Source: Nitrospirota bacterium (GTDB lineage: Bacteria; Nitrospirota; JACRHL01). Taken from it: DNA of 64,000 bases. Positions 4,168 through 28,917 of this stretch are shown one piece after another. Location of the stretch: assembly GCA_016212085.1 (NCBI GenBank), contig JACRHL010000003.1, forward strand, positions 186,001 to 250,000. Reading direction: 5' to 3'. Position 1 is the first letter of the stretch. The number at the start of each line of letters is the position of its first letter. The position numbers were made by a program, and so were the translations under genes. The notes under the pieces are model-generated. The model was given only the letters and a program-made list of their open reading frames with translations. It made no database searches and was not told where the DNA came from.

Positions 4168-5025
4168 TCAGGGGGCGATCAGCAGTTCCTCGGAGGGTGC
4201 CGACTCGCAGCCGGAGCCGGACACGGCCACCACCCGGTAGGCCACCACCGCCTGGCCCACCATCCCGGCATCGAGCCAGCGGGTCTCGCGCAGCGGCGCC
4301 CCGGTGAGGCGCACCACCGAGCGGGCGCCCCCGTCGGTGGGGTGGTTCACCCGCTCCACGTGGTAGGCCACGCCGTCGCCGGCCACGGGCGCCCACATGA
4401 GCAGCACGCCACGCCGCCCCTGCTGCGGCGACACCAGGCCCTGCGGCGCGGCGGGTGCCTGGTTGGCGGCGCTGCCCGGCGCGCCGATCACCAGCTCCAG
4501 GGTATAGGGCCGGTCAGCGCCCGGCGCGGCAAAGGTGTAGGTGCTCACCGGGCCCATGTCGGCCACGCCGCCGCTGCCGTCCAGCAGTTGAATGCGGCGC
4601 GAGGTGCAGGTTTCGCCGGTGGCCGGCGGGTCCCACGACAGGGTGACCGGATCGCCGGGGGTCACCCCGTCGCCGGTGCCGGTGAGCGGCGTGGCCACCT
4701 GAAGGGTCCAGACCTCCGCGCCGGCGCCGGCGCGCACGTCCACCTTCAGGTACCGGGCGGGGGCGGGGGCAGCGGGATCGAGGAACCACGCCTGCAACGG
4801 CCCCACCCGATAGGCCACGTCGTCCACCCCCGGATCGTAGCCGGCGGAGGCGGCCGGGTCGATGGCGGCCACCACGTCCGCCGCCACCCGGTCCGGCCCC
4901 AGCGGCGCCGCCACGCGCAGGTGCAGCGCCAGTTCCGCCGCCGGCGCCGCCGTGGCCCCAAGGGCCACCCAAAACAGCGCCGCCATGCGGGCCGGCCGGC
5001 CGATCCGTTTGCGCGCGCGGGTCAT
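4168..5025 (-). CDS. Secreted protein with C-terminal fibronectin III-like domain
   Basis: Unrecognised 285-residue exported protein. Residues 1-30 look like a signal peptide (basic MTRARKRIGR, hydrophobic stretch, then APAAE). Residues 30-185 look like a beta-rich domain with two cysteines. The last 95 residues resemble a fibronectin type III domain (WAPV...YHVERVNHPT...YRVVAVSGSG). The ATG overlaps the stop of the giant gene upstream (ATGA), so the two are almost certainly co-expressed. The same FN3 style occurs in the giant protein, suggesting a shared extracellular structure. A near-perfect inverted repeat lies just past the stop (4144-4166). No enzymatic motif was seen. Confidence 0.8.
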   Translation of the reverse strand: MTRARKRIGRPARMAALFWVALGATAAPAAELALHLRVAAPLGPDRVAADVVAAIDPAASAGYDPGVDDVAYRVGPLQAWFLDPAAPAPARYLKVDVRAGAGAEVWTLQVATPLTGTGDGVTPGDPVTLSWDPPATGETCTSRRIQLLDGSGGVADMGPVSTYTFAAPGADRPYTLELVIGAPGSAANQAPAAPQGLVSPQQGRRGVLLMWAPVAGDGVAYHVERVNHPTDGGARSVVRLTGAPLRETRWLDAGMVGQAVVAYRVVAVSGSGCESAPSEELLIAP

Positions 5026-8000
5026 GGGTGGATCACCTCCACAAAGTAGCTCAGCGCCGGGTCCGCCGCGCCCCCGAGCTGGACGAAGTAGGCCCGGTAC
5101 GGCAGCAGCTTCTCGGTGGCGCCCACCGGCACGCGGGTGAAGGTGCCGTCCACGTCCGTGTAGAACTCCAGGTTCTGGGCCACGACGCCGGCGGCGGCCG
5201 CGGCCGGGTACGGCTGGTTGTACACCTCCACGCCGCCGCTCCTGCCGATCACGCGCACGCCGGACAGGGCCACCGCCGTGGGATAGGGGTTCGAGACCAG
5301 CGCCGCGTTCTGCGCCGGCAGTGCCACCTGGCCGAAGCCGAGCAGGTCGAAACCGGCCACGTCGATCACCGTCTGGGGGCCGGCGGACAACACGAACACC
5401 CCCTCGCCGGCGGGCACCGGATCGGCCACCGCATCGATCACGTTGATGGCCACGAAATCGCCGCTGACGCCCGCCGCCGGATCCCAGCGGAAGGCGGTCA
5501 CCCGGGGCGTCTCGCCGTTGGCGCAGGCCCCCACCGGCCCGCTCCCCGACACCGGCAGGCCGCTGCCCGGACAGGTGCCGAGGATACCGCCGAGCACGGC
5601 GGTCACGTCCGTGTCCATCAGGCTGCCGGGCCAGGAGACCGCGTTGATGCCCGCGCGCAGGGCCGTGTGCACCAGCACCTCGTTGGACAGGGTCGACGCC
5701 ACGCCGCCCACCGAGTAGCTGCGCAGGGCGATATAGACCGGGGCGTTCTCGGGCAGATCCGTGAGTACATACTCCTGCGCCACACCCGTGGTGGCCGGCA
5801 GCAACGGCACCCATACCGTGTGGCGCGCCGCCCCCGTGGCGCCCGCCAGGGGCTCCGTCGCCCACACCAGCTCATAGCGGATGGCGCGCCGGTCCGCCGC
5901 CTGGGGTGCGGTCCAGCGCAGGCCCGCCTCGTGGGTGCGCACGGTGCCGGCGATCACCTGCAAGTCGCCCACCGCGGTGGGCTGCACGGCGGTGGCGTTG
6001 GGATCGGTGCCGGTGGTGCCGCTGGCAAAGGCCGCCGCCGGCGCGAAGCGCGTGAGGGTGGGCGGCGAGCCCACCGTCTGGTAGCGCACCGGCGCCAGGG
6101 CGAAGTGATAAGTGGTGCCCGGCGCCAGGCCGCGCGCCACCACCGACTGGCGCACGCCGCTTTGCACCGGCGTCGGCGTGTTCAGCACGCGGGCCGCCCG
6201 CGACATGCACACCTGGCCCGCCGGCGGGTTGGCGCAGTCGGCCACGGAGGCGTCCTCCACGATGACATCGGTGGCGAAGCGCAGGTCGTAGGATGTCGGG
6301 GCGCCGCCACGGGCGGTCCACGCCAGCGTCAGGTCGTTGATGCCGGTGGCGGACACGATCAGGTCGGTGATGGCCGCCGGCGTCGCCGGAGCGGTGGTCA
6401 CGCTCGGCACGTTGGAAACCGGCGCGCGATGGGTGTTGTCCTCGTCCAGCCCCTTGACGGCGAAGTAGTAGGTGGTGGCCGCATCGAGACCGGTGACCGT
6501 AAAGGCGTTGGCCACGCCGCGGGTGCCCCCGCTCCCGTCGACAGCGGGCGCGACGATCTCGGAGCGCGACACCCGGTCGAACGGAATGGCGAAGTTGTTG
6601 TCGCCCCCCACCTCGGAGATGGGCAGGGTGGCGATGCGCAGGTCGTAGGCGCGCACCGGCCCGGTGGGGCTCACGCCGCCGTCGTCGCCCACGCCGGTCC
6701 AGGTCAGGCCGGCCATGCTCTCGGGGTTGGCCCCCGCCACGGCCGCCAGGTTGGTGACCGCCTCGGGCGGAATCGGATCCGCCGACAGGGTCGCCACGGT
6801 GAGCACGTTGGACATGGCCGACACGTTGCGCCACGGCACCAGGGCGCCGCTGGCCGCATCCACCCGGCTGGCCCGGTCGCCCACCTTGACCGCCACGGTG
6901 TAGGTGCCGGTGGCGCCAAAGTTCACCTCCACCGACTGGGTGGACCCGGCCACGCCCGGCGACGGCGGCGCCGCCACCTGATTGGCGTTGGAGAAGCAGA
7001 CCTGGCCCGCGGGCGGCGCCTGGCAGTCCGGCACCGAGGGGTCGTCGACGATGGCCAGCGGCGACCAGCGGATGTCGTACCCCCCCGCCTGGCCGGTGGC
7101 GCCGTCGTCACCGGGAACGGTCCACCGCACGGTGGCGGTGGTGGCCGTCTGGCCCGTTGCCGACAACGTCACCGCCGCCGGCGGCACCTGGTCATCCCGG
7201 TAGGCGATGCTGGCAGTCTGGCCGTAGATCAGGCCGCTTCCGCCGGCCCCCGAGGCGAAGCTCCAGTGGCGCATGTGGTTGTCGAGCACGGCCCAGTCCG
7301 CCCAGCCGGTGCCCTTCCAGCGGGCGAGGTGGGTGGTGAGCTCCACCGCCTCGGGCAGCGATTGGATGCCCCCCTCGTCCACCACCACGGCCATCAGGTC
7401 GCCGGATTCCGGGTCTTCCTCGACGGAAACCGAAACCAGGATCAGCTGAGCGCCGGTGGCGACCCCGGTGGCGTGCAACTGAGGCAACTCCAGCGCCGCG
7501 CCCCAGCCGCCGGCGGGCGTCCACACGCGGGTGTCGAGCCGCGACAGGTAACTGGTGCCGGTGGCGGTGACGTAGACGGTGGAATAGAGCGCCACCAGCC
7601 GGCCGTCGTCGGTCCAGCCATGGCCGAAGTTTTGCTCGGCCACCACGCCCTGGCCGTTGGAGAAGGCGGAACGGTTGTTGAGCAGCGCGCTCCCCGCCTC
7701 CCAGCCGTTGTTGTAGAAATGCGCGACCACCGCCCGCTCCCCGGCTCTGGGGATGGTGGCGAGCACCGCGATGCGGTCGTTGTCGGGCGCGGCCTTGGCA
7801 TCCAGGAACACGGGGCCGGTGCCGCCGGTGATCAACGCCGACTGGGTCACGGCGCCCCAGCCCAGGGCGGGGTCCCAGCTGACCGCCTGGATGGCGTCGG
7901 TGGTGGCCAGCCCGAAAAACGCCACGGCACGGCCGCCCAGCGCCTCCCAGGCGGCGTCGAAGCCGCGCTTGGGGGCGTCCCAGGTGTTCAGCGCGGCGGG

Positions 8001-11000
8001 GCCGTTGGTGGTGAGCGGCCCGCCGATACCGTCGTCGTACTGGGACACGAAGGCACCGGCGCCGCCTGCCGCCGCCCCGTCCCAGACCAGCGCCTGGATC
8101 TGGCGCGTGTCGGTCTGGTACATCACCATGATGCGCCGGCTGCCCGGCTGCGGAATCAGCCGCACCCAGCGGATGGTGCCGGTGGCGGCGGGGTTCACGC
8201 CACCCACCAGCAAGGGCGCGGGCGCCGACGCGGCGGTGCCGTGGGTCTGGAACCAGAGGCCCGTGCCCAGGCCGTAAACCAGCAACCCGCGGCCGGGGCC
8301 GGCCTGCTCGTAGGCGATGTCGTACCTCTGGGTGGTGACACCGGCGATGCCGCCGGAGACGTCCAGCGGACCGGGGGCCGCCACCAGGGTCCAGGAAGGC
8401 GACGTCGGCTGCTTGCGGTACACCACCAGATTGCTGGCCAGCACGGTATTGGTGCGCGCCTGGGCGACCGCCAGCAGGTACTCGCCGGGGTTCATGGGGT
8501 TGGCCCGCAGCTGGGTGAACAGGTCCTGCTGGGTGCCACTGTGCGGCAGCGCACCGGGCGTGAGCGGGTCCGAGATCAGAGGCGCGCCCACCGGCGCGCG
8601 GCCCGCCCAGTCGCGCACGTGGAGGTCGCCCGTGCCGAGGCCGGTCAGGTAGGCGATCTTGGCGGGGGTCCCCACGGTGCCGCCGTCGATGGTCAGCGGG
8701 AAGCGGCCCACGCCGCCGTCCGGGTTGGTGACCTGCACGAAGGGGCTGCCGGTGGCGTCCAGGCTCACGTCCATCACCGTGCGCAGCGAGTTGGGGCCGA
8801 TCCATCCCACCTGCGTGCCCGGCGTGAACGGATCGAAGTCGCGCAGGGTGATTCCGGTACCCGACAGGGCCAGTTGCGCCGCCGGATCGAAGCCGGCGCC
8901 GGCCACCAGCACGTTCACGTTCTGCTGGCCCGGCACCACGGCGCCCGGTTGCAGGGCGGTGATGAGCGGGGCGGCGTTGACGGTCAGCGCGCCGGAACGG
9001 ACGTCGGTGCCGGCGGCGGTGGTGGCGGTCAACGCGGCAACACCCGGCGCCATGGCCGCTGGCAGGGTCAGGTCGAAGGTGGCGGTCTGGTCGTCCACCA
9101 CGTTCAGGTTGGAAACGGCCAGGCCCGGAAGATCGAACGACAGCGCCAGCGCGCCGCCGGCAAGGCCCCGGCCGGTGAGGCGCGCGCCGGTGATGGTGCG
9201 GTCGAACCATTCGGCCAGGCCGACCGCCGGATCGCCAAACCCGCCGGCCCCGTCCGGGATGCCGATGGCGCCGATGGTGGGGCCGCTGGCGCGGGTCACC
9301 AGCAGCATGCCGGGCACGGCCAGGGTGGCGCCGTCACCGTTGGTCACCAGCAGGGTGCGCAGGCCCGGCGCCGCCTGGGCGCCCACCGTTACCATGTAGT
9401 CCATGCTGGTGGCGGTGACCGTGGCGCCGGTGACCGACGCCACCACAGCCGGGTCCGCCGTGCCGTCGGGCAGCACGAAGGCAAGCCGTGGATCGGCCGG
9501 GATGTTCAGGAAGCCCTGGCCCGTCAGCACCTTGGCCACGCCGCTGGCGCCCTGGGCCAGCTCGAACGCCTGGCCCGCGGCCACCGTGAAGGCGGACACC
9601 ACCGTCACGGCCGCGTTCGCCGTGGCGCGCCCGCCGTCGCGGTTGGCGATCTTCACGGCCATCGGCCCCAGGGGCGAGGCCGCGTCCACCTGGACGGTCA
9701 CGTCCACCCGGTTGGGGTGCTGCGGGCGGACGCTGGTCACCCGCACCAACGACGACGCCGCGCCGACGTTGCAATCGTTGCCGATGCACACGCGCGGATT
9801 GGCGGCGTCGAGGTTGAAGCCGGAAATGATCAGGTCCACCGGACCGGCGCCGCGCACCAGCTTGTTGGGGGTGACCATGGTGACCACCGGGGCCGGATTG
9901 ATGGTGAACGGCATGTTGCTGGTGGAGCCGTCCGGGTTGCTCACGGTCAGCGTGCCGGTGCCCACGTCGGCACCGGGGTCCACGGAAACCATGACCTGGC
10001 TGCTGGTGAGGTTGCCGCCGCCGGGCAGGGTCACGGCGCGGTAGCCGGTCAGGCGGATGTCGGCAAAGGTGGTGATGGCCGGGGTGTACACGTCGTGCAG
10101 GCGCGTCAGGCGGTTCACGCCGCTCTGCGAGAAGGCGATGTTCGCCAGCGTCATGCTCGACGAGAACTCCTGACCGGCGATGGACAGCGCAAAGCCGATC
10201 GGCCTGGTCTGCACGAGCCCGGTGATGTTCAGGGGCACGAGCTCGCTGCCGGCGCCCGCGCCGACGCTGGCCGGCGTCACCGCTTGCAGGATCATGGGGC
10301 GGCCCACGGTGAAGCCGTCAACCAGTTCGCCCGGCACCCGCGTGGCGTGGTTGGTCACGCTCACCGTGCGCGGGCCCGGCGTGGCCGTGGCCGCCACCGA
10401 CACCACCACCTGCAAATGGCCGGAATCGACGAGCACCGGCGCGGACACGGTCACGCCGGCGCCGAACGACACGGTGGCGTTGGGATGGAAGTAGCTGCCC
10501 AGGACGTCGAGCGTGGCGGAACGGCCGGCGGCCACCGTGCTGATGGGGCCGATGGACGTCACCACCGGCTGGGGGTTGACCGTCCAGGGCGTCCAGGTGC
10601 CCTGCCCCGCGTCCGGGTTGGTCACCCGCAGCGCCGTGGCGGCGGTGGGCAGGTCCACGGGCACGATGATCTGCGCGGTCAGGGCGGCCCCGGCCACCAC
10701 GGTGGGGCCCACCACCACGTTCGCGTCATCCACGCTGATGATCGCGCCGCTGGCGAAGTTGGCGCCGCCGACGGTCACCAAAAAACTGCCCACCGCCGCG
10801 TCGGGCGTGACGGTGGAGATCATCGGGGCGGAAGACAGGGTCAATGCCGCCACCAGGGTGCTGGTGCCCGCCCCCTGGGTGACGGTCACGTCCACCACCT
10901 CGCCGCCCAGGGCGCCGGTGGTGGTGACCAGTGTGTCGATCCGCTGCAATGCCGCCGGATCGGCCACGCACGCCGCGTCATTGCCCGGTCCGGGGCAGCC

Positions 11001-14000
11001 GGCCGGGTCCAGCCGCAGCGTCACGTTGGGGTCGGAACTGGCGAGCACCGGCGTGGTGAACGCGCCGGGAACGCCAAAACCGTAGCCGTACAGGGTGACC
11101 GGCTTGTCCACCAGCCCGGCGGGCAGGGTGCCGGGCGCCGCATAGGCAAGCGCCGGCCAAGGGAACGTGGGCGATGTCACCACCACGCCGTGGGTGAGCA
11201 GGCCACCGCCGCCGTCCGGGTTGGCCACGCGCACGTCGTAGGCGCCCGTGGGGGTTCCCGCCGGGGCCGACAGGGTGACGCGCAGGCTGCCCGGACCGGA
11301 CAGGGCCGGGTTGACGGTGGCGCTCACCGCCGAGGCCACGCCCGCCCGCTCGATGGTCACCTGCGCCGCCGGGTCGAACAGGCTGCCCAGGATGTCCGCC
11401 GCCAGCGGCGTGCCGTTGACCACCTTGTTCGGCGTCACCGCGACCACCGTCGAGTTGGGTACCACCGTGATGCCGCCAAAGGCGATGCCGCCGGTCTGGT
11501 CGGCGTGGCGCACCAGCACGTCGCGCGCGCCAAGGGCGCTGCCGACGGTGGCGCTGACGGGCACCTCGAGGTTGGCGGCGGGCTGCGCGATGGCGCCGCC
11601 GGTCAGGCCGGTGCCGGTGAACAGCACGCCGTCACCCACCACCAGCCCGACGCCCTGGATCACCGCCTGCAGCGAGACGCCGCGGGCGACGGTCGCCGGC
11701 GTGAGGGCGGTGACGGTGGTGGCGGCCTGCGCCACGCCGGTGCCCGCAAGGCCGGCATACCGCGCGTCGGTGTATGGGCTGGTGCCGCCATCGACGCCGA
11801 CGGCGCCGGCGAAGGCGTTGGTCACGCCGTGATACACGGCCACCCGGCCGCCGCCACCGCCGGTGCCGGTCTTGGTGTTAAGGGTGGCGAGGAACGGCGA
11901 CGCGTTGCCGCCCTTGGCCTCGATGCGGCCGCCCACGGTGCCGCCCACGGCGCCGCCGGCGAGGATCAGCACCGACCCGCCGCTGCCGCCACCCGCGCCC
12001 TGGCCGATGGTGGAGGTGAATATGCGGCCATCGGCGGCATAGGACTCGAGGGTGCCGTTGGTGCCGTTGGCGGACACCACGCCGTCCACGGTGACGTTGC
12101 CGGCCACGTCGAGCACCAGGGCGCCGCCTCCGGCGCCGCCGGCGTGCCAAATGTGGGTCGGGGAGAGCGGCCGCTCGTAGGCGCTGCCGCCCCCGCTGCC
12201 CATGGACAGGGGCACCCCCTTGAAGCAGGCGAGGTCGGTACACTGGCCAAACAGGTCGTAACTGGCGCCGCCGGTGGCGGCGGTGCCGGGGCCGCCCTTG
12301 CCGCCGAAGCCCCCTCCCCGGCCGCCGGGCACGCCGCCCAGGGGACTTGCCGCGCCCCCCCCCGGCCCGGAGCCGGCGGTGCCCAGGCGACCACCCGCGT
12401 GGCCGGTGCCGTTGGCGTGGATGGCGCCGGAGGCGCCGACGGCCAGGTTGCCGCCGACCCGCAGGCGACCATAGGTCTGCGCCGGGTCGAAGACGATGGC
12501 GCCGCCGGTCACGGAGACATCGCCGGACACGCTCACGGTGATGTCGCCCACGATACGCAGCTCGCCACCGGTCGCGGTGATCGCCGAATAGGCGCGGGTG
12601 CCGGAGCCGGTGATCTGGGTAACCCCGGTGCCGATCGTGAGCGGCGCGGCCGCGATGACCGTCAAAGGCGATGCCGCCGAGCGGTTTCCGTTGGGGTTGT
12701 TGACGAACAGGCCGACCGTGCCCGGCGCCGCGCCGACGTTGATCACCAGGTCGATGCGGGTGCGGTCGACCACGGTCTGGGCGGCCACCGTCACGCCGGC
12801 GCCGGCGGTCACCACCCCGTTCGGATGGAAGCCGGTTCCGGTGATCGTCACCGGCAGCCCGGTCTCCCCCTGCACCACGGTGGTCGGGCTGAGGGACACG
12901 ATCACCGGCACGGGTTCCACCTGGAAGGCCCTGGCCAGGGTGATCTGGGCGCCATTGTCCCGGAGCAGGGTCAGGTCGCGGGGGGCGTCGAACGCCGCCG
13001 TCTGGCCGATGGCCACGTCGAAGTCGAGGGTGGTGCCGCCGGGGGCGGCCACCACGTTGCCGACGGTCAGGCCGGTCCCGGAGAAGACGATCTCCGCCGG
13101 CGTGTTCACCGTGTCCAGCCCGGTTCCCGCGATATGCACGGGAACGGTCGTGCCCTGGTTGCCGCTGGCGGGGGTGACGGAGGTGACGGTGATGCCCGCC
13201 AGCACCGAGAACAGCGGCGCGGCCGAGGTGTGGCTGCCGCCGTCCAGGTTGGTCACCGACACCAGGTGGCCGCCGGCGGTGGCATCCGCCAGCACGTCCA
13301 CCGTCAGCAGGGCGCGGGTGAGGGACACCAGGGAGGTGCCACGCACCAGCACGCCGGAGCCAAGGCCGAACACGGCGCCCGGCTGGAAATTGCGGCCGTC
13401 CACCGTGAGGATGGCCCCCTCGGCGCCCGCGCCGATGCTGGTCGGCGCCACGGCGCTCACCCGGACGAACGGCTGCACCTCGAACACCCCGGCACCGGTG
13501 CCGGTGCTGGAGTCGGCGTTGATGACCGCCACGTTCATGGCGCCCAGGGTGGCGCCGCCGGCCACCTGCACGCTTCCGGTCAGCACGTCCTCGCCGGTGC
13601 CCGCGTCGTGGGACCAGGTGGCGGGGCCGACGAAACGGGTGCCCGCGCCGGCGAACACGGCCGTGGCCCCATCGCGGATGCCGGTGCCGCGCACCTCCAC
13701 GCCAAGGCTGTTGTCCTGCAGGCCGCAGGCGGTGGCGGCGGTGGCCGGCACGCACGGCGTGGCCGCCACCTCGAGCACGCGGATGGCCGCCGGCGACGGC
13801 AGCACGGCCAGCCCCTGGGTGATCGACGCCGACGCGCCGCCCGGGTTGGTCACGGTGATGCCGTAGGTGCCCGGCACCACGTTGCCGATGGACACGGTGG
13901 CGGTGATCTGCGTCGACGACCCGAACGCGACGGAGTTGACGGTCACCCCCGGATTGCCGACCACCACGGCCGGCGTGTTCAGGAAGCCGGTGCCGTTGAT

Positions 14001-17000
14001 GGTCAGCACCTGCTGGGTGGAGTTGGCGCCGATCCGCGCCGGCGACACGCCGGCATAGGTCACGCCGGTGATGGTGGGCGGCGCCGGGGGCGGCACGAAA
14101 CGGTAATCGGTGGAAAAGGCCTGGCCGGTCTCCGGCACGGGCGTGCCAAGCGGGTTGCCCGTGTTCCAGGCCACGCCGTCCCACTGGTACAGGTTCAGGG
14201 TGCCGCTGCCGGGGGCGGCCTCGTTCATGTCCTGCACGGCGGCGAGCAGGTCGCCGCTGGCCGGATCGCCGGTCAGTTGCACCCAACGGGCCGGATAGCG
14301 GGAGCTGCTGCCTTCCAGGCCGCCGGGCGTGGACCAGCCGCCGCTGGAGCCCCACTTGCGCACCTGGGGCTTGACCGGCGTCACCACCGGGGTGGCGACC
14401 GCCTTGCCATAGACCACGAACGCCTGGTCGAGGGTGGACGACCAGACCACGTCGAACGGGCGCGAGCCGTTCAGGGCCGACAACCGGTCCGGCGTGGAAA
14501 CCATCGGCGCGGGCAGCTCCGGGAAGGTGTGCCCCCAGCCGGTGGCATCGCGCATTTGCAGCACCAGCGCACCGCCGGGCAGGGTGCTGTTGGCCATCGC
14601 CACCCGGTCCGCCACCGGCGACGCGGCCAGCCGCAGCCAGGCGATCCCGTCGGAGGCGCCGGTCACCGCGGTGAGGGCCTGCTCGCTTCCCCAGGCGGCG
14701 CCACCCCACGACGCCACGCCGGGCGCGCCCGCCCCCTTCACGCCCCAGGCCACCAACGCCTGCTGCGGGGCGGCGCCGTGGTACACGGCGTCAAACGCCA
14801 TGGTGTCCAGCGCCGACAGGGTTCCGGCCGGGGCCAGCACCCGCTCCGTGGCGGCATCGAAGGCACCGTTCCGCCACACCACCGCGCACAGGGCCTCGTT
14901 GGCCTTGGCATAGGTGACCAGCGCCTCGCCGCCATCGTCGCGGGACGCGGCGCGCACCCAGATCACCTCGTCGGCGCCGGAGCAGGCGGGATCGGTGGCC
15001 GGCACGGCGCCGGTGGCGGGGGTGACGCCGAACACGCGGTAGGACAGCCCGCCGCCGGGCGTGCCGTGCACCGCCAGGAAGCGCTCGCCCGCGGCGCCGC
15101 TGACGGGCGCCGCGTCCATGGCGCGGCGCGGGTTCAGCGCGCCGGACACGGTGGCCGGCCCCACCGGCGCCTGCCAGGCGAGGGTGACCGGGGCGCCCGC
15201 CGCGGTGCGCTCCTGACGATACAGGTCACGGGCGGCGCCCAGTGACGCCACCAGCAGCGACCCGTTGCCGAGGCCGGCGCGGCTCTCCACCCATTCCGGG
15301 GTGTGCGGGATGGGCGTGCCGACGGGCTGCACCTGGGTCCAGCCATAGCCGTTCCAGTAGCGGTGCAGCGGGTTCGCGGCGCCGGTCTGGCCGTACAGCA
15401 CGTCGGCCTGGTTGACGCCCACCGCCGGAACCAGCGGGAAGGCCACCACCGGCGACACGCCGCCGTCGCCGTTGTCCACCCACAGGTCGCGGGTGGCGCT
15501 GACGGTCAGGTCCGCCTCCACATCCACGGTCACCTGCACGGTGAGGCGGTTGAAGCTGACGAACTGGACGCTGCCCGGCACGACGCTCATCCCCGTGCCG
15601 CCCACCAGCACCTGGGCGGGGGCGATGAATCCGGTGCCGTCGACGGTGAGCGTGACCGGACCCTGGCCGACGGTGATCTGCGCGGGGCTGACCGCCGCGA
15701 TCTGCGGTAGCGACAGCACGTTGAAGGTCGCCGGGGCCTGCGAGCGGCCCAGGTCGGGGTTGACCACGGTCATCGCCACGGGCCCGGCGGGCGCCGTGGT
15801 GGCCACCTGGATGGGAACGGTCACGGTCTGCGCCCCCTCGTCCACCACCGCCGGACCGGTAAGGCTCACCACCGCCGGCGCGAAATCCACCGTGGCACCC
15901 GCCTGGAAGTTGGCGCCGGAGATCACCAGCGTGCCGCTGAACCCGCGCGCCAGGGCGGTGACCGGCTGCCCGCCGGATTGCACCGCGCCGATCACCGGCG
16001 CCGCTGTGATGGTCAGCAGCGGGGCATTGGCCGAGGTCTGCAAATCCGGGTTGGTGACACGCAGCACCTTGGGGTTGGCCGCGGGCGCGGCGTCCGCCGT
16101 GTAACCCACCGAGAGGGTGACGTTGATCTGGTCCGGCGGCACCGGGCTCACGCTGTGCAGGGTGATGCCCACGGCCGGCTGGAGGGTGCCCGGATCCAGA
16201 ATGGCCAGCGCGGAACCGGCCACGTAGTTGGCGCCGTTGACGGTCATCGCCACCGTGGACGCCCCCTGGCCGATGGCGGCGGGCGTGACGAAGGTCACCT
16301 CCGGGGTCTGCGTGCCGACGCTCACCTGGCAGGTGCCGGCGGAACCGTTGGTAACCAATGCGGTACCGGTCACTCCCTTCAGGCCGAAGGCGCAGGACAG
16401 GTGGGTGGCCGCGTCCAGCGCCGACCCCAGGGCGCCACCGTTGACGCCCGCGTAGTAGACGGCGACGCGGCCGCCGGCACCGCCGGCGCCGGCGGTGCAC
16501 AACCCCTGGGCCTGGTTGCCGCCGTTGCCGCCCGCCGCGCTGATGTGGGTGCCACCGGTGGTGGTGACCAGGTCGCCCGTGGACAGCAGCACCGCGCCGC
16601 CGCTGCCGCCGCCGCCGGAGCCGTTGGGCGCCAGGGCCACGCCGTTGCCGCCGTTCACGGTGATCAGGCCGTCGAGGGTGGTCTGGCCGGCCACGCGCAT
16701 GCGCAACGCGGCGCCACCCCGGCCGCCGGCGTTGACCGGCACGGTGGCGTTGTAGCCATAGCCACCCATGCTGCCGGGATAGAGCGGGCTCGCGGCCAGG
16801 CCATAGCTGGTGCCGCCGGACTGGGTACCGGAGGTCTTGAGGGCGCGGCCGCCGTTGCCGCCATGGCCCGCGCCGCTGCCGCCACAGGTGAGCGACCCGG
16901 CCCCGGCCCCGGCGGTTCCCGCCGGCTGGCTGGGCATGGCGGCGGTGGCCAGCGACCCGCGGCCGTCGATGGTGGCGCCCAGGGGCAGATTGAAGCCGCC

Positions 17001-17306
17001 GCCCACGTCGATGAAGGCCGCGCTGGCCGTGTCGATGAGTTGCAACGTGGCCCCGGCGGTGAAGGTCAGGTTGCCGGTGACGGTGAGCACGCCCGCACCG
17101 GTGATCCGGGACGGCGAGATGTTGCGGATCTCTAGGTCGCCGTTGCAAGTGAGCCCTTCCAGGCCGATGCCGCCGGGATCGAGCTGCACCGCCACGCCGC
17201 CGCCGGACGGCGTGCACCACGCGTCGGCGCGCACCGGGGCGGCGCTCCCCAGCACGGCCAGGGCGGCAACAAGGATCGGCGCTATGAACTTAAGACCTGA
17301 ACGCAT
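5022..17306 (-). CDS. Giant secreted repeat protein (IPT/TIG repeats, glycine-rich modules, FN3 domains), 4094 aa
   Basis: Probably a cell-surface or extracellular structural or adhesive protein. I start it at ATG 17304-17306, because MRSGLKFIAPILVAALAVLG...ADA is a clear signal peptide. By eye about 18 IPT/TIG-like repeats carry the pattern VTP..hG......V.GTGF. Two glycine-rich, beta-helix-like modules share GGGGSGG and a GGRVAVYY/GGRVAVYH motif (about nt 17190-16340 and 12560-11740). Two long segments look like atypical propellers or exported-repeat domains (about 15430-14100 and 8690-7200). Four fibronectin III-like domains follow (about 7190-5750), then a unique C-terminal domain. No LPXTG, PEP-CTERM or autotransporter barrel was seen, so the secretion route is unknown. 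A 9-base G tract lies at 12355-12363. The small secreted gene downstream overlaps it by ATGA. Confidence 0.88.
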   Translation of the reverse strand: MRSGLKFIAPILVAALAVLGSAAPVRADAWCTPSGGGVAVQLDPGGIGLEGLTCNGDLEIRNISPSRITGAGVLTVTGNLTFTAGATLQLIDTASAAFIDVGGGFNLPLGATIDGRGSLATAAMPSQPAGTAGAGAGSLTCGGSGAGHGGNGGRALKTSGTQSGGTSYGLAASPLYPGSMGGYGYNATVPVNAGGRGGAALRMRVAGQTTLDGLITVNGGNGVALAPNGSGGGGSGGAVLLSTGDLVTTTGGTHISAAGGNGGNQAQGLCTAGAGGAGGRVAVYYAGVNGGALGSALDAATHLSCAFGLKGVTGTALVTNGSAGTCQVSVGTQTPEVTFVTPAAIGQGASTVAMTVNGANYVAGSALAILDPGTLQPAVGITLHSVSPVPPDQINVTLSVGYTADAAPAANPKVLRVTNPDLQTSANAPLLTITAAPVIGAVQSGGQPVTALARGFSGTLVISGANFQAGATVDFAPAVVSLTGPAVVDEGAQTVTVPIQVATTAPAGPVAMTVVNPDLGRSQAPATFNVLSLPQIAAVSPAQITVGQGPVTLTVDGTGFIAPAQVLVGGTGMSVVPGSVQFVSFNRLTVQVTVDVEADLTVSATRDLWVDNGDGGVSPVVAFPLVPAVGVNQADVLYGQTGAANPLHRYWNGYGWTQVQPVGTPIPHTPEWVESRAGLGNGSLLVASLGAARDLYRQERTAAGAPVTLAWQAPVGPATVSGALNPRRAMDAAPVSGAAGERFLAVHGTPGGGLSYRVFGVTPATGAVPATDPACSGADEVIWVRAASRDDGGEALVTYAKANEALCAVVWRNGAFDAATERVLAPAGTLSALDTMAFDAVYHGAAPQQALVAWGVKGAGAPGVASWGGAAWGSEQALTAVTGASDGIAWLRLAASPVADRVAMANSTLPGGALVLQMRDATGWGHTFPELPAPMVSTPDRLSALNGSRPFDVVWSSTLDQAFVVYGKAVATPVVTPVKPQVRKWGSSGGWSTPGGLEGSSSRYPARWVQLTGDPASGDLLAAVQDMNEAAPGSGTLNLYQWDGVAWNTGNPLGTPVPETGQAFSTDYRFVPPPAPPTITGVTYAGVSPARIGANSTQQVLTINGTGFLNTPAVVVGNPGVTVNSVAFGSSTQITATVSIGNVVPGTYGITVTNPGGASASITQGLAVLPSPAAIRVLEVAATPCVPATAATACGLQDNSLGVEVRGTGIRDGATAVFAGAGTRFVGPATWSHDAGTGEDVLTGSVQVAGGATLGAMNVAVINADSSTGTGAGVFEVQPFVRVSAVAPTSIGAGAEGAILTVDGRNFQPGAVFGLGSGVLVRGTSLVSLTRALLTVDVLADATAGGHLVSVTNLDGGSHTSAAPLFSVLAGITVTSVTPASGNQGTTVPVHIAGTGLDTVNTPAEIVFSGTGLTVGNVVAAPGGTTLDFDVAIGQTAAFDAPRDLTLLRDNGAQITLARAFQVEPVPVIVSLSPTTVVQGETGLPVTITGTGFHPNGVVTAGAGVTVAAQTVVDRTRIDLVINVGAAPGTVGLFVNNPNGNRSAASPLTVIAAAPLTIGTGVTQITGSGTRAYSAITATGGELRIVGDITVSVSGDVSVTGGAIVFDPAQTYGRLRVGGNLAVGASGAIHANGTGHAGGRLGTAGSGPGGGAASPLGGVPGGRGGGFGGKGGPGTAATGGASYDLFGQCTDLACFKGVPLSMGSGGGSAYERPLSPTHIWHAGGAGGGALVLDVAGNVTVDGVVSANGTNGTLESYAADGRIFTSTIGQGAGGGSGGSVLILAGGAVGGTVGGRIEAKGGNASPFLATLNTKTGTGGGGGRVAVYHGVTNAFAGAVGVDGGTSPYTDARYAGLAGTGVAQAATTVTALTPATVARGVSLQAVIQGVGLVVGDGVLFTGTGLTGGAIAQPAANLEVPVSATVGSALGARDVLVRHADQTGGIAFGGITVVPNSTVVAVTPNKVVNGTPLAADILGSLFDPAAQVTIERAGVASAVSATVNPALSGPGSLRVTLSAPAGTPTGAYDVRVANPDGGGGLLTHGVVVTSPTFPWPALAYAAPGTLPAGLVDKPVTLYGYGFGVPGAFTTPVLASSDPNVTLRLDPAGCPGPGNDAACVADPAALQRIDTLVTTTGALGGEVVDVTVTQGAGTSTLVAALTLSSAPMISTVTPDAAVGSFLVTVGGANFASGAIISVDDANVVVGPTVVAGAALTAQIIVPVDLPTAATALRVTNPDAGQGTWTPWTVNPQPVVTSIGPISTVAAGRSATLDVLGSYFHPNATVSFGAGVTVSAPVLVDSGHLQVVVSVAATATPGPRTVSVTNHATRVPGELVDGFTVGRPMILQAVTPASVGAGAGSELVPLNITGLVQTRPIGFALSIAGQEFSSSMTLANIAFSQSGVNRLTRLHDVYTPAITTFADIRLTGYRAVTLPGGGNLTSSQVMVSVDPGADVGTGTLTVSNPDGSTSNMPFTINPAPVVTMVTPNKLVRGAGPVDLIISGFNLDAANPRVCIGNDCNVGAASSLVRVTSVRPQHPNRVDVTVQVDAASPLGPMAVKIANRDGGRATANAAVTVVSAFTVAAGQAFELAQGASGVAKVLTGQGFLNIPADPRLAFVLPDGTADPAVVASVTGATVTATSMDYMVTVGAQAAPGLRTLLVTNGDGATLAVPGMLLVTRASGPTIGAIGIPDGAGGFGDPAVGLAEWFDRTITGARLTGRGLAGGALALSFDLPGLAVSNLNVVDDQTATFDLTLPAAMAPGVAALTATTAAGTDVRSGALTVNAAPLITALQPGAVVPGQQNVNVLVAGAGFDPAAQLALSGTGITLRDFDPFTPGTQVGWIGPNSLRTVMDVSLDATGSPFVQVTNPDGGVGRFPLTIDGGTVGTPAKIAYLTGLGTGDLHVRDWAGRAPVGAPLISDPLTPGALPHSGTQQDLFTQLRANPMNPGEYLLAVAQARTNTVLASNLVVYRKQPTSPSWTLVAAPGPLDVSGGIAGVTTQRYDIAYEQAGPGRGLLVYGLGTGLWFQTHGTAASAPAPLLVGGVNPAATGTIRWVRLIPQPGSRRIMVMYQTDTRQIQALVWDGAAAGGAGAFVSQYDDGIGGPLTTNGPAALNTWDAPKRGFDAAWEALGGRAVAFFGLATTDAIQAVSWDPALGWGAVTQSALITGGTGPVFLDAKAAPDNDRIAVLATIPRAGERAVVAHFYNNGWEAGSALLNNRSAFSNGQGVVAEQNFGHGWTDDGRLVALYSTVYVTATGTSYLSRLDTRVWTPAGGWGAALELPQLHATGVATGAQLILVSVSVEEDPESGDLMAVVVDEGGIQSLPEAVELTTHLARWKGTGWADWAVLDNHMRHWSFASGAGGSGLIYGQTASIAYRDDQVPPAAVTLSATGQTATTATVRWTVPGDDGATGQAGGYDIRWSPLAIVDDPSVPDCQAPPAGQVCFSNANQVAAPPSPGVAGSTQSVEVNFGATGTYTVAVKVGDRASRVDAASGALVPWRNVSAMSNVLTVATLSADPIPPEAVTNLAAVAGANPESMAGLTWTGVGDDGGVSPTGPVRAYDLRIATLPISEVGGDNNFAIPFDRVSRSEIVAPAVDGSGGTRGVANAFTVTGLDAATTYYFAVKGLDEDNTHRAPVSNVPSVTTAPATPAAITDLIVSATGINDLTLAWTARGGAPTSYDLRFATDVIVEDASVADCANPPAGQVCMSRAARVLNTPTPVQSGVRQSVVARGLAPGTTYHFALAPVRYQTVGSPPTLTRFAPAAAFASGTTGTDPNATAVQPTAVGDLQVIAGTVRTHEAGLRWTAPQAADRRAIRYELVWATEPLAGATGAARHTVWVPLLPATTGVAQEYVLTDLPENAPVYIALRSYSVGGVASTLSNEVLVHTALRAGINAVSWPGSLMDTDVTAVLGGILGTCPGSGLPVSGSGPVGACANGETPRVTAFRWDPAAGVSGDFVAINVIDAVADPVPAGEGVFVLSAGPQTVIDVAGFDLLGFGQVALPAQNAALVSNPYPTAVALSGVRVIGRSGGVEVYNQPYPAAAAAGVVAQNLEFYTDVDGTFTRVPVGATEKLLPYRAYFVQLGGAADPALSYFVEVIHP

Positions 17307-17490: not shown

Positions 17491-17539
17491 CGACACGCCC
17501 CGCCCGCCGGCACGGGGAAACCCGCTGCCCAATTCCAGG

Positions 17540-18310
17540 TCACCGCTTCCCCGACAGGGCGCAACGGAACCCAAAACTCGGCTGGCCGATCACCGGCAAC
17601 ACCGAGAAGCGGTTGGCGGAGCGGGCGAACATGGGCGCCGACTCCCACGAGCCGCCCTTCAACACCCGGTATTGTTGCCCGAACGCCCGGCGCTCCAGCG
17701 TCGATCCGGGGGGCCTGTCGTACCAGGTGTCCGTCCACTCCATCACGTTGCCGGCCATGTCCAGCGCCCCGTAGGGGCTGGCGTTCTCCGGGCGGCTGCC
17801 CACCGGCGCCGGGCGCCGCGTGTCCAGGGTGTGGTGGACCACCCATTCCGGGCGCCACGTGTCGCCCCAGGGGTACAGCCGGCCGTCGGGGCCCCGTGCC
17901 GCCTTCTCCCACTCCGCCTCCGTGGGCAGGCGCTTGCCCGCCCACGCGCAGTAGGCCCGGGCATCGTCAAAGTCCACGGCGCTGGCCGGTTCGTCCGGCA
18001 GGGGCGGACCGATAGTATACGCCCACAGAGGGAACGCACGGTCCTTGGCGGCGTGGATGAAGCTCAGGTATGCGCTCACGGTGACCTCGGTGCGGTCGAT
18101 CCAGAACTCGGGCAGACGGACCGTGCGGGCGGGCACGGAATCCACCGCCACATCGATCCCCAGGCGCCCGTCGCCGGGGTCGTGCCCCATGACGAACGGA
18201 CCCGCCGGAACCCGCACCATCCCCGCCAGGCGCGGATCGTCCGGGCGCACCGCCGAACCGGCGCACGCCACCAGGAGCAGCAGGGACAGCCAGGCCACAC
18301 CACGCGCCAT
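17540..18310 (-). CDS. Lipoprotein with FGE-sulfatase fold, lacking the catalytic cysteine
   Basis: A 256-residue protein of the formylglycine-generating-enzyme (SUMF1/FGE-sulfatase) superfamily. Family hallmarks are MVRVPAGPFVMG, FWIDRTEVT, RLPTEAEWEKAARG, the NVMEWT segment and GGSWES. ATG 18310 is preferred over ATG 18334, because GAGGGG precedes it and a short hydrophobic stretch ending in a lipobox (LLLLVAC) follows, so it should be a lipoprotein. True FGE has active-site cysteines shortly after the GGSW segment; here that stretch has none. It is therefore probably a binding or structural FGE-fold protein, not a sulfatase activator. It is the last gene of the cytochrome operon, 7 bases after a paralogue. 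Confidence 0.85.
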   Translation of the reverse strand: MARGVAWLSLLLLVACAGSAVRPDDPRLAGMVRVPAGPFVMGHDPGDGRLGIDVAVDSVPARTVRLPEFWIDRTEVTVSAYLSFIHAAKDRAFPLWAYTIGPPLPDEPASAVDFDDARAYCAWAGKRLPTEAEWEKAARGPDGRLYPWGDTWRPEWVVHHTLDTRRPAPVGSRPENASPYGALDMAGNVMEWTDTWYDRPPGSTLERRAFGQQYRVLKGGSWESAPMFARSANRFSVLPVIGQPSFGFRCALSGKR

Positions 18311-18317
18311 TGCCCCC

Positions 18318-19136
18318 TCACCGCCCCGCTTCATCCGCCGCCGACACGGCGCAGCGGAAGCCGATGGCCCGGTGCCGCTTGGTCGGCCGGAACGCCAGGG
18401 TCCGGTGGGTGACCCGCGCGTAGGGCCGGTACGACAGCATCCAGCTGGCCCCCCGGATCACCTTGTTCTCCTCGCCGAAGGCGCGCCGCTCCAGGTCGCT
18501 GCCCGGATACGCCCGGTACCAGTCGGCGGTCCACTCCGACACGTTGCCGCACAGGTCACGCGCGCCGTAGGGGCTCAGGTCGCCGTCAAAACTGCCCACG
18601 GGGGCGGTCCAGCCCAGCTTCCCCTCGCGCACGTTGCAGCGCTCCAGGTCGAACTCCTCGCCCCACGGGTAGCGCCGGCCGTCGGTGCCGCGCGCCGCCT
18701 TTTCCCACTCCGCCTCCGTGGGCAGGCGCTTGCCGGCCCACTCGCAGTATGCGTTGGCGTCGCCCCAGTCCACATAAACCACCGGGTGCCGTTCCAGGCC
18801 GGAGGGGAAGTTTCCCTCCTCCCACGAGAAGTACTCCGGGAAGCGGGGATCCACCGGCGCCCGGCGGCCGGTGGCGCGCACGAACTCGCGGTAGGCCAGG
18901 TTGGGCACCTCGGTGCGGTCGATCCAGAACGCGTCCACGTCCACCCGGTGGCGCGGCACGGAATCCACCCCCACCTCGACGCCCACCCGTCCGTCGCGCG
19001 CGTCGGCCCCCATCTCGAACGGGCCGGCGGGAACCCGCACCATGTCCTGGCGCAGGTCGGCGGCCCCGGCGGCGTGCACGCCGATCACCAGCAACCCCGC
19101 GCAGGCGAGGCGCCACGGATGCCAGTTAGCCCGCAA
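18318..19136 (-). CDS. Exported FGE-sulfatase-fold protein, paralogue of the next gene
   Basis: A 272-residue exported protein. I choose TTG at 19134-19136: a GGAGG Shine-Dalgarno lies five bases upstream, inside the end of the 12-haem gene, with an 11-base overlap. The product then begins with a signal peptide (RLACAGLLVIGVHAAGAAD). The FGE-fold hallmarks are present: MVRVPAGPFEMGAD, FWIDRTEV, RLPTEAEWEKAARGTDG, GNVSEWTADWY and RGASW. As in the neighbour, no cysteine follows the GASW segment where FGE has its catalytic pair. Tandem FGE-fold proteins behind a cytochrome are unusual; binding, scaffold or surface roles are guesses. Confidence 0.85.
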   Translation of the reverse strand: MRANWHPWRLACAGLLVIGVHAAGAADLRQDMVRVPAGPFEMGADARDGRVGVEVGVDSVPRHRVDVDAFWIDRTEVPNLAYREFVRATGRRAPVDPRFPEYFSWEEGNFPSGLERHPVVYVDWGDANAYCEWAGKRLPTEAEWEKAARGTDGRRYPWGEEFDLERCNVREGKLGWTAPVGSFDGDLSPYGARDLCGNVSEWTADWYRAYPGSDLERRAFGEENKVIRGASWMLSYRPYARVTHRTLAFRPTKRHRAIGFRCAVSAADEAGR

Positions 19137-21849
19137 TGGTGCCTCCGGCACACCACTCGCCGCCCTGCAGGCTGGAGCCGGAACGGGGGCTCTGGTAGCG
19201 GCAGTTGTCCATGTTCTCGCCGTGGCAGCGCAGGTTGCAGGTGAACTCGTCCGCCACCGGGTCATAGGTCCACTTGGGCTTGATGTCGATGGTCCCGTCC
19301 GCCTGCGGCCCGAAGTTGATGAGGTGGGTGTTGATCACCCCGTCCAGGTTGCCGTCCGTGGCGTCCGGCGGCAGGAACGCCGGATCGCCGGTGCCGTCGC
19401 CGTAGATGGTGTTGGTGGCCTCCACGTTGGAATGCACGTTGTAGTGGCACTCGTGACAATACGCCCCCGTGAAGCGCAGGTGATACATGTGCAGGTTGCC
19501 GTCCCAGTGGCCGGGCGTGGTGTTCGGCGGGCTGCCGAAGAACCGCGTCCAGCTGCTGTCGCGCATGGCCAGGTCCGGATCCGCGTGGCCAGGCGCGAAC
19601 GGATCGAACGCACGCCGGTCGTGGCACTGGAAGCAGAGCAGGAAGTTGTCCCAGTGGGACGCCCGGCCGCCGTCGCTCAACGTGCAGGCCTTGCTGCCGG
19701 GCGGCTCGCCACCCAGGCTCGGCTGCCCCTCGTAGCAGCGCTCCGGGTTGAGGATGTCGGTGTTGTAGTTGTTGCGCAGGATGCGCAGCTTGGTGGAGCC
19801 GTGCGGCCCGATCGCCGGATACTCCGGGAACAGGGCCTTGAGCGGCTGGAAGTTGGACGGCGCGTCGGTGGCGCGCAGGTTCGACTCGGTCACCGGACCC
19901 GGCACCACGCTGGTTTCGTTGGCGTTGTGGCAGTCGGTGCACTGGATGGTGCTGTCCACCGTGAGGCCGGAGCCCGACATCTGCAACTGCTTGTCCAGCT
20001 GGGGCGAGCGGTTGCGGCCCGGCACCGCCACCGGGTGGAAGGCCGCGTTGGACGGCTGCATGGTGTGACCGACGGCCGTGTCCGGCGTGTTCGGGTCGAA
20101 CTCCTTGCGCTTGTTGGAAAAGCCGCGATAGCTGAACGACGGGTTGGTGGGCGTCAGGTCACGCGGGTCGGAGCGGTGCACGGTGTCGTCCGGGAAACGG
20201 TCACCGGTGAAGACGGTGGTGTAGCTGTTGGCGTGGCAGCGGAAGCACACCTCGTACACGTACACCTCGCGGTCGTTGCCGGGCACGCCGGGGCCCACCA
20301 CGTTGCCGTTGATGTCGATGCCGCGCATGCCCTTGAGGCGGTTCTCGGGCACCACCTGGTGGGGGTTGTGGCAGTCGGTGCACTCGATGTGCGTGTTGTC
20401 CGGCTTGGCCAGCCCGATGCTCCCCTCGTTGCCCGCCGGCGGCGCCGGCGAGTTCAGCTCCACCCCCTCGCCGGGGCTGGCGATGAACACGGGCTCGTGG
20501 CCGCTGGCCAGGGACAGGTTCATGGCCGAGCCGCAGCGGGTGTCGTCCGGCAGGTAGCGCGGGCCGGTGGCGTTCAGCGCCGGCTGGCAGTTGGGGGTGT
20601 TCTGGTCCTTGTTGAAATGGCTGTAGATGTCCGGCGCCACCCGGTCGGTGAGGAACCGCGGGAAGGTGGGCGAGGTAAAGTCGCCGGCGGGCAGGTAATA
20701 GGGCATCTGGCTGCCCGCCGAGGGGACGGCCGCCGTGTTCGGCGCATGGCACATGAAGCAGGTGTGCTCCACCGCGTCGGTCGCCGTTTCGCTGATCTCG
20801 CTGGCCCCCTCCCGGTGCAGGCGCTTGGCGCCCTGGGCGGTGTGCGGGTCGTGGCAGTTGCGGCAGGCGGTCTGGGCCACCGTGTGCTGGCCGTCGAAGT
20901 CGTAGCCGAAATTCTCCGGCGGATTGCCGGGATCACCCGGATAGGTGTTGCGGGTGGCCGGGGAGGCCGCGTGGGTGCTGCCCCGCCAGCCCGGCTTCTC
21001 GTGGCAGTTCAGGCACAGGATGTCGGAACCGGGGGGATCGTCCTGCCAGATGGGGGCGCGCAGGAACTTGGGATAGGTGACCGCGTGCGGGTTGTGGCAC
21101 GAGGTGCACTGCACCGCGTCGTACACGCCGGGCACGTTGCCCTCGGCGCGGCGCAACGGGAAGATGGGGCTGTTGGCGCCGATCCGGTCGAGGGGCGGGC
21201 CCGGATCGACCAGCTCCGTGTCGCGCTGGGCCAGGGCCGAGTCGAAACGGAACGACACCGGGTGGTCGTTGGTCAGGTTGGTGCCCAGGCGGCGGGTATC
21301 CCCCCCCCACTGGCCGCCACCCTGGGGCATGACGATGCCGCGGGTGGCCGTGTCCGGGTACGCCACCACCGCCACCGCGTCCTGCGGGGTGGCGGAGTAG
21401 CCGCCGGAGCCGGGGGCGTTGACCACGCTGCCCAGGGCAATGGTGCCGTCGTGGCACGACAGGCACAGGCGCGAGTAGCCGGTGGGCGCGCCGGGGTGCA
21501 CGTCGCCCTCGAAGGAACGCGACCACACCTGGTCGTACAGCTTGTACGCGGCGGACGACAGGTGGCGGTTCCACAGGGGGCCCCGAATCTGCGCGGCCTC
21601 GGCACTGCCGCCGTGGGGGGTGTGGCAGAACACGCAGATCTCGCCGGTCTCCGGCGAATAGACGTTGTATCCGGGCACACGCTGACCGTTCACGCCCTGC
21701 GCGGAGATCCCCCGCGACGACAGGTTGTGCTTGGTCTTGGCGATGTCCTCCACCGCCTCCAGGGAGGCGGGTGGCGCCTGGGCCGGGGCGGCTGCCGGAA
21801 ACAGCAGGGCGGCCGCCCAGGCCCACAGGACCATGTGTGCAATCCGCAT
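19126..21849 (-). CDS. Exported dodecahaem c-type cytochrome, 907 aa
   Basis: A large multihaem cytochrome with a signal peptide (MRIAHMVLWAWAAALLFPAAAPAQA). I count eleven CXXCH motifs plus one CX3CH (CNLRCH, near residue 870), so up to twelve haems. Motifs lie near residues 72, 128, 246, 278, 331, 367, 486, 533, 636, 738, 797 and 870. Residues 35-290 closely parallel the whole tetrahaem protein encoded at 25899-27008: TKHN, CVFCHTPHGG, PLWNR, CLSCHDGT, NAPGSGG, DHPVS, CxSCHNPH, then a CxxCH ending. The remainder is an eight-haem extension. ATG 21849 is chosen because the signal peptide follows directly. It lies in the operon with a beta-barrel and NHL lipoproteins. Likely role: electron transfer at or beyond the outer membrane. 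A 9-base C run at 21300-21308 lies in the gene. Confidence 0.9.
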   Translation of the reverse strand: MRIAHMVLWAWAAALLFPAAAPAQAPPASLEAVEDIAKTKHNLSSRGISAQGVNGQRVPGYNVYSPETGEICVFCHTPHGGSAEAAQIRGPLWNRHLSSAAYKLYDQVWSRSFEGDVHPGAPTGYSRLCLSCHDGTIALGSVVNAPGSGGYSATPQDAVAVVAYPDTATRGIVMPQGGGQWGGDTRRLGTNLTNDHPVSFRFDSALAQRDTELVDPGPPLDRIGANSPIFPLRRAEGNVPGVYDAVQCTSCHNPHAVTYPKFLRAPIWQDDPPGSDILCLNCHEKPGWRGSTHAASPATRNTYPGDPGNPPENFGYDFDGQHTVAQTACRNCHDPHTAQGAKRLHREGASEISETATDAVEHTCFMCHAPNTAAVPSAGSQMPYYLPAGDFTSPTFPRFLTDRVAPDIYSHFNKDQNTPNCQPALNATGPRYLPDDTRCGSAMNLSLASGHEPVFIASPGEGVELNSPAPPAGNEGSIGLAKPDNTHIECTDCHNPHQVVPENRLKGMRGIDINGNVVGPGVPGNDREVYVYEVCFRCHANSYTTVFTGDRFPDDTVHRSDPRDLTPTNPSFSYRGFSNKRKEFDPNTPDTAVGHTMQPSNAAFHPVAVPGRNRSPQLDKQLQMSGSGLTVDSTIQCTDCHNANETSVVPGPVTESNLRATDAPSNFQPLKALFPEYPAIGPHGSTKLRILRNNYNTDILNPERCYEGQPSLGGEPPGSKACTLSDGGRASHWDNFLLCFQCHDRRAFDPFAPGHADPDLAMRDSSWTRFFGSPPNTTPGHWDGNLHMYHLRFTGAYCHECHYNVHSNVEATNTIYGDGTGDPAFLPPDATDGNLDGVINTHLINFGPQADGTIDIKPKWTYDPVADEFTCNLRCHGENMDNCRYQSPRSGSSLQGGEWCAGGTIAG

Positions 21850-21903
21850 AGGCACCCCAGGGCTGGTTGAACCTTCTATTCTAGTCAAAATGGTCATGCG
21901 TCA

Positions 21904-24806: not shown

Positions 24807-24816
24807 ACATGTCCCC

Positions 24817-27008: not shown

Positions 27009-27082
27009 CGCCATACTCTCCTTTTTTCCTCGCCCCGAATCAGGTGGCCTGGCCGGCCACCATGAGTTGATCACACGATTGT

Positions 27083-28120: not shown

Positions 28121-28913
28121 GGCACGTCAGGCACAGGGCGCTACCGTGGTTGGACACGCGCAGGAACGGGTCGCGCCCCTCCGAGTTGTCCTCGTCCGGG
28201 TTGTGGATGTCGTGGCAGGTGGCACACTGGACCTTGTCTCCCGCATAGGTCTGGATGCCGTTCTCGAAGGCCCGGCCGCCGTCGCGCTTGTGCACGGTGG
28301 GCTGGGTGAACTGGGGGTCCTGCATCCGGGAGGGATAGGGGATCGAGATCGGGTGATCGTCGCGCAGGTCCTTGGTGAGGTAGCGCACCACCGCGTCGTG
28401 GGCGGCGTTCACCCCACCGATGCCGCCCCCCTCGCGGCTGTGGCACTTGGCGCAGGAATCGGTGCCGCGGCCCTGCACGGTGGCGTCCATGCGATAGTGC
28501 ACCTGGGAGTCGGCCCAGTCGTGGAACTTGGGGACGTTGCGGATGTCGTCCACGCTCACCGTGCCGTCGTGGCACGACAGGCAGGCCAGGGAGATGCCGT
28601 CCGGCGCGTTGGGCGGAAGCGAATCGAAGTTGGGGCTCGAATACATCTGGTAACCGTCCTCGGTGGACAGGTTGCGGTTCCAGAGCGGCGCCACCGGGCT
28701 TCCGTTGTGGGGGGTGTGGCAGTAGATACAGGCCTCGCGGTAGTCGTTGAAGGTGAAGCCCTGCATGGGGCCGGTGGGCGAGCCGTCGTAACCGCGCTGG
28801 TTGAAAAAGCTCAGGTCGTGGCGCGAGCCGATGATGGAACCCCCCAGGGCCACCCCCGACCAGGCCATCACGCTGGCCACCAACAGACCGATGATGCCGT
28901 GCCACCGCGCCAT
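28110..28913 (-). CDS. Pentahaem c-type cytochrome, OmcE-like with one extra haem
   Basis: A 267-residue exported cytochrome; the signal peptide is MARWHGIIGLLVASVMAWSGVALG. Five CXXCH motifs: CIYCH, CLSCH, CAKCH, CATCH, CLTCH. The frame CIYCHTPHNG, PLWNR, CLSCHDGT, DDHPISI, CATCHDIHNP and terminal CLTCHEK matches the tetrahaem protein downstream. The CAKCH site sits in an insertion between the family's second and third haems. ATG 28913 is four bases after the preceding stop. It could be a filament subunit, a filament terminus or a periplasmic feeder. Confidence 0.88.
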   Translation of the reverse strand: MARWHGIIGLLVASVMAWSGVALGGSIIGSRHDLSFFNQRGYDGSPTGPMQGFTFNDYREACIYCHTPHNGSPVAPLWNRNLSTEDGYQMYSSPNFDSLPPNAPDGISLACLSCHDGTVSVDDIRNVPKFHDWADSQVHYRMDATVQGRGTDSCAKCHSREGGGIGGVNAAHDAVVRYLTKDLRDDHPISIPYPSRMQDPQFTQPTVHKRDGGRAFENGIQTYAGDKVQCATCHDIHNPDEDNSEGRDPFLRVSNHGSALCLTCHEK

Positions 28914-28917
28914 CGCC

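Follow-up and report, generated by a model that had tools for sequence, protein, structure and literature searches.

A giant IPT/TIG and FN3 repeat protein and a small partner associated with an undecaheme cytochrome cluster in Nitrospirota

Little is understood of what keeps extracellular cytochromes at the cell surface and of how they reach minerals, electrodes or partner cells. The Uet set comprises the undecaheme cytochrome UetJ, the tetraheme cytochrome UetA, the triheme cytochromes UetDEG, the isomerase UetB, the barrel UetC and the NHL proteins UetHI (PMC10734462). In syntrophic sulfate reducers, the fibronectin-domain cytochrome OetF has been proposed to touch the conductive matrix (PMC10553843). 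Here we describe a gene for a giant secreted protein, together with a small partner gene, beside a cytochrome cluster in a stretch of 64,000 nucleotides from a Nitrospirota bacterium (contig JACRHL010000003.1, positions 186,001 to 250,000; hereafter the window, with positions counted from its first letter).

In gene content the cluster resembles Uet of Tenderiales and Gallionellaceae (PMC10734462, PMC5371394): both contain undecaheme and tetraheme cytochromes, a prolyl isomerase, a barrel (here a predicted one) and two NHL proteins, with a triheme cytochrome nearby. Neither a giant repeat protein nor the partner nor FGE-fold proteins appear in the Uet subunit list (PMC10734462). As in OetF (PMC10553843), adhesion-type domains are tied to an electron conduit, but OetF is a fused cytochrome, whereas the giant is a separate protein. 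The IPT/TIG and FN3 giants of the choice-of-anchor Z type (NF058597) share with it the TIG-type stretches, the signal peptide and the multi-domain surface build. It differs from them in that no anchor was found and in having glycine-rich and propeller modules that match no model, the partner and the cytochrome cluster. All three cluster cytochromes align with the filament cytochrome of Protein Data Bank entry 7tfs, which we take to be the Geobacter OmcE filament (E 1e-15 to 2e-19); they are longer or carry more hemes. The idea of an IPT/TIG protein in the Geobacter omcZ operon was considered and set aside, as the papers found do not show it.

We propose that the giant and its partner form the adhesive or scaffolding part of a conserved Nitrospirota gene cluster for extracellular electron transfer, outward or inward, and assign this role a probability of about 0.55. 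The build of the giant, the homology of its modules, its conservation and its linkage to and co-occurrence with the cluster are established here; the export route, docking, ligand and role are inferred. Its kind, a TIG/FN3 surface protein, is already known; the tie to the cytochrome cluster is the more interesting and unexpected result. A giant and partner that accompany one cytochrome cluster across a phylum would be a concrete candidate for holding cytochromes in place.

The association is well supported by a survey of 292 genomes (labelled G, their families f), among which 23 have the undecaheme gene and 15 a full-type partner. The undecaheme gene is present in 13 of the 15 partner genomes and in 10 of the 277 others (Fisher p 8e-15, uncorrected for kinship). 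At the level of families, all six with a partner fall within the nine undecaheme families out of at least 35 (p about 5e-5). A giant-type FN3 and C-terminal domain (FN3-Cterm) gene, the partner gene or both lie within a few genes of undecaheme or FGE genes in four families, in differing arrangements: f1, f8 (G018, G026, G041, G058 and G068), f24 (G130 and G272) and f28 (G156). The usual set in f8 is a large FN3/TIG/Gly protein, an FN3-Cterm protein of 690–744 residues, the partner and the undecaheme cytochrome, followed by FGE-fold proteins. The partner family, of about 280 residues and with no convincing match in Pfam or NCBIfam, adjoins an FN3-Cterm protein in ten genomes of other families (G118, G162, where it lies upstream, G182, G018, G026, G034, G010, G041, G058 and G068).

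Several observations weigh against the proposed role. Because the genomes share ancestry, the Fisher p assumes more independence among them than there is. Family f25 (G138 and G158) has the whole core cluster, yet neither giant nor partner was found next to it. In G162, G182 and G232, whichever of the two is present lies at another place in the genome. A gap of 233 bases separates the giant gene from the nearest FGE gene, so that co-transcription is only a possibility. The structure models, predicted from four sequences, are of low confidence (mean pLDDT 60 and 53), and fold claims are therefore kept soft. Finally, no anchor was found, as the sequence-only reading of this DNA had noted: the giant has no C-terminal membrane helix (maximum KD19 1.09), and it matches no anchor model in Pfam or NCBIfam. 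With respect to choice-of-anchor Z, it is therefore classed as a carrier of the repeat only.

Some of these points favor a rival explanation, that the giant is an ordinary choice-of-anchor-type adhesin for biofilm or surface attachment, a mere neighbor of the cytochrome cluster with no functional tie to it. Multi-domain TIG/FN3 surface proteins are common, the NF058597 match is strong, f25 has the cluster without the giant and other genomes have the giant unlinked. We consider this possible but unlikely, because the linkage recurs in differing arrangements in four families and is accompanied by co-occurrence. In addition, the propeller module shares a single open frame with multiheme cytochrome segments of 3, 14 and 10 CxxCH motifs (G009 and G135; loci L071, L072 and L073), a fusion that we count in favor of a tie to electron transfer.

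The giant is 4094 residues long, and its gene has the extent given in the sequence-only reading, on the minus strand. Its module map and the partner gene are as follows.

5022..17306, minus strand: giant secreted protein gene, 4094 residues, ~406 kDa; ATG at 17306, TGA at 5024-5022; based on the open frame and colinear orthologues
17223..17306, minus strand: Sec-type signal peptide, residues 1-28, assigned by eye; KD19 maximum 2.22
16311..17222, minus strand: Gly-rich module A (GlyA), residues 29-332; short beta strands predicted in its N-terminal part; conserved Cys
15423..16310, minus strand: three IPT/TIG repeats, T1-T3; Pfam, NCBIfam and own profiles
14091..15428, minus strand: propeller-like module A (PropA), residues 627-1072; profile comparison, Foldseek matches to propeller lectins and sialidases
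12645..14084, minus strand: five IPT/TIG repeats, T4-T8; own profiles
11709..12638, minus strand: Gly-rich module B (GlyB), residues 1557-1866, about 1554-1864 in our own profile map; profile comparison
8673..11726, minus strand: ten IPT/TIG or TIG-like repeats, T9-T18; own profiles
7185..8681, minus strand: propeller-like module B (PropB), residues 2876-3374; profile comparison
5652..7190, minus strand: four FN3 domains; Pfam, own profiles and structure-model matches
5025..5657, minus strand: C-terminal domain, residues 3884-4094; common to distant kin, no membrane helix
4168..5025, minus strand: partner gene, 285 residues, probably secreted; start overlaps the stop of the giant gene (ATGA)

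The N-terminal sequence of the protein, MRSGLKFIAPILVAALAVLGSAAPVRADA, is plausible as a Sec signal peptide. The hidden Markov model scan suggested by the sequence-only reading found both IPT/TIG (PF01833, 51.4 bits) and FN3 (PF00041, 53.2 bits) above the Pfam gathering score. NF058597 matches in ten stretches with 157.6 bits (NCBIfam; curated cut-off 30 bits), and scores 133–177 bits in the orthologues. The Gly-rich and propeller modules matched no Pfam or NCBIfam model, and sequence searches of the Protein Data Bank with the giant, the propeller profile and the Gly profile gave no match. Both domains would gain a definition from this work.

The family contains three further genera with full-length colinear orthologues, which are 4139–4218 residues long and have the same architecture; identity to the giant is 40–44% over residues 1–2949. 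Two of the hosts are recorded as Nitrospirota bacterium metagenome-assembled genomes and one as a Nitrospira sp. metagenome-assembled genome. The four-base ATGA overlap between giant and partner is the same in all four orthologous loci and in G156. Of the 22 cysteines in the giant, 18 are invariant across the four genera, mostly in close pairs, a spacing that would fit an exported protein with disulfides. A search of the genome contigs with the giant as a single query protein gave no match.

Because self BLAST of the whole protein returned the full self match alone, segment BLAST and profile comparison were used to examine internal homology. With profiles of four orthologues each, hhalign matched GlyA to GlyB along their whole length (99.6%, E 1.2e-24, 241 columns, score 167.3) and PropA to PropB over 394 columns (99.5%, E 4e-23, score 173.7). 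The Gly and propeller profiles scored about 0 against each other. As a control, columns were permuted inside 15-column windows, which keeps the regional glycine content; in 100 such versions the highest scores were 21.5 for Gly and 29.8 for propeller, and reversed profiles gave 18.0 and 18.6, respectively. The match of the Gly modules is thus not due to glycine composition. The two homologous Gly-rich blocks, about 1200 residues apart, that had been seen in the letters alone are therefore real (measured distance 1222), as is the repeated propeller-like segment. The off-diagonal between the halves, the absence of which had been named beforehand as refuting, is present for both pairs. Of the shared words reported, GGRVAVYY and GGRVAVYH are right, and GGGGSGG occurs in GlyA, but GlyB has GAGGGSGG instead.

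The order Gly-TIG-propeller is indeed found twice in the giant, as Gly-TIG3-Prop-TIG5 in unit 1 and as Gly-TIG10-Prop-FN3x4-Cterm in unit 2 according to our own profiles. The sequence-only reading had taken this to suggest a duplication of a half-protein, and in that form the claim is not supported. The TIG counts are unequal, the four FN3 domains and the C-terminal domain occur once, and the TIG repeats share no joint register: their segment BLAST offsets are 743, 780, 967 and 1811, as against ~1530 for the Gly and 2255 for the propeller modules, so that no single register joins the modules. A weak periodicity of five TIG units (p 0.005 uncorrected, from double-centered TIG scores, with seven periods tried and a dependence on the chosen unit boundaries) is suggestive of a super-period.

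Distant kin in other families re-order the same parts. The giant of G156 (3264 residues) runs Gly, five TIGs, Gly, three TIGs, propeller, TIGs, Gly, three FN3 domains and the C-terminal domain. The protein of G130 has propellers and four FN3 domains without Gly, and those of G162 and G068 have Gly and lack the propeller. Three Gly modules with one propeller in a new order, or propellers without Gly, indicate that the modules move independently. Both the Gly pair and the propeller pair are older than the split of the four genera. We read the repetition as re-use of modules rather than as a proven single duplication. A single half-protein duplication that produced two Gly-TIG-propeller units, later blurred by gain and loss of TIGs, seems doubtful to us, although homology holds for both pairs, their order is preserved, and the trees do not reject it. 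In these trees GlyA and GlyB are neither firmly united nor separated relative to kin (approximately unbiased test, p 0.39), and PropA and PropB group weakly, without firm support (75/79). The lack of a common TIG register, the unequal numbers (3 versus 10), the differing flanks and the free re-ordering in kin all argue against it. In G118 the giant is seemingly split into overlapping frames of 396 and 1651 residues (L069:7599-13612), by a frameshift or an assembly error.

The propellers are probably of a lectin-like fold, as judged from the models. Foldseek searches with the model of the first half returned Ig chains, propeller lectins (AofleA and BP39L), with fucose-binding ones among them, and sialidases, and those with the model of the end returned FN3 chains. 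The TM score of the first-half model by target length is 0.54 (BP39L; 6gxr); pLDDT is mostly 70–87 in the middle blades and lower elsewhere. A catalytic function of the propellers and Gly modules, as parts of a glycan-active enzyme rather than of an adhesin, is improbable despite the sialidases among these matches, since lectins score better and no catalytic family was found in Pfam or NCBIfam, even when the giant was scanned module by module.

The preferred adhesive or scaffolding role would work as follows. The giant would be an exported, all-beta surface protein with TIG stalks, two propeller heads, two Gly modules, four FN3 domains and the C-terminal domain. It would leave the cytoplasm by Sec and then cross the outer membrane, possibly via a type II system. 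Its C-terminal FN3/Cterm part and the partner may dock near the cytochrome complex, the TIG and FN3 repeats would give reach, and the propellers and Gly modules may bind matrix, mineral, cell or filament. A bolder version, which we offer tentatively, is an extracellular scaffold of Nitrospirota dedicated to cytochrome-based electron transfer, in which a lectin-like giant stalk and a small partner keep undecaheme or filament cytochromes attached to matrix, partner cells or minerals through two uncatalogued domains that are freely shuffled, the propeller being sometimes fused to cytochromes.

Regarding export, GspD, the type II secretin, is present in the genome. For the type IX secretion system, no SprA match was found in the genome (the search control matched nowhere either), and the giant matched no target domain in NCBIfam. 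Anchoring by PEP-CTERM and exosortase is not supported, as the C terminus of the giant has no PEP motif, helix or basic tail. An exosortase gene is present in the same genome (window 54790-55497, minus strand; TIGR02602, 201 bits, above the cut-off).

The neighboring minus-strand cluster runs from 30114 to 17540 and begins with a regulator-type propeller, followed by these genes.

28110..28949, minus strand: pentaheme cytochrome, 5 CxxCH; 7tfs_A match E 1.7e-19
27083..28120, minus strand: NHL propeller lipoprotein 1
25899..27014, minus strand: tetraheme cytochrome, 4 CxxCH; 7tfs_A match E 6e-16
24817..25851, minus strand: SurA/PpiC-type prolyl isomerase
22965..24827, minus strand: predicted outer-membrane beta-barrel, assigned by position and conservation only
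21904..22965, minus strand: NHL propeller lipoprotein 2
19126..21897, minus strand: undecaheme c-type cytochrome, 923 residues, 11 CxxCH; 7tfs match E 1e-15
18318..19265, minus strand: FGE-sulfatase-fold protein a, start codon uncertain
17540..18334, minus strand: FGE-sulfatase-fold protein b, Pfam PF03781 E 8e-54; lipoprotein-like N terminus

Within this order, pentaheme-NHL-tetraheme-prolyl isomerase-barrel-NHL-undecaheme-two FGE-fold, genes overlap or are separated by less than 70 bases, and the core order is common to families f22, f24, f25, f28, f29 and f31. The giant gene lies just beyond this operon, as had been noticed, and the orthologues show that the position is conserved. No promoter or terminator was found ahead of the giant gene; the gap before it contains a strong hairpin with a 13-bp stem and no T run (window 17450-17520, minus strand).

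The two FGE-fold proteins (17540-19265, minus strand) keep the GFRC ending, and by eye they lack the paired cysteines of active FGE. They may therefore be structural. Across families, they track the undecaheme gene. A triheme cytochrome gene is divergent from the cluster (window 30966-31670, plus strand), and relatives of it lie next to the cluster in both G156 and G182, and close to the giant in G118. In G182, adjacent frames of 1110 and 1146 residues with no module matches lie opposite the cluster (L118:12474-19243).

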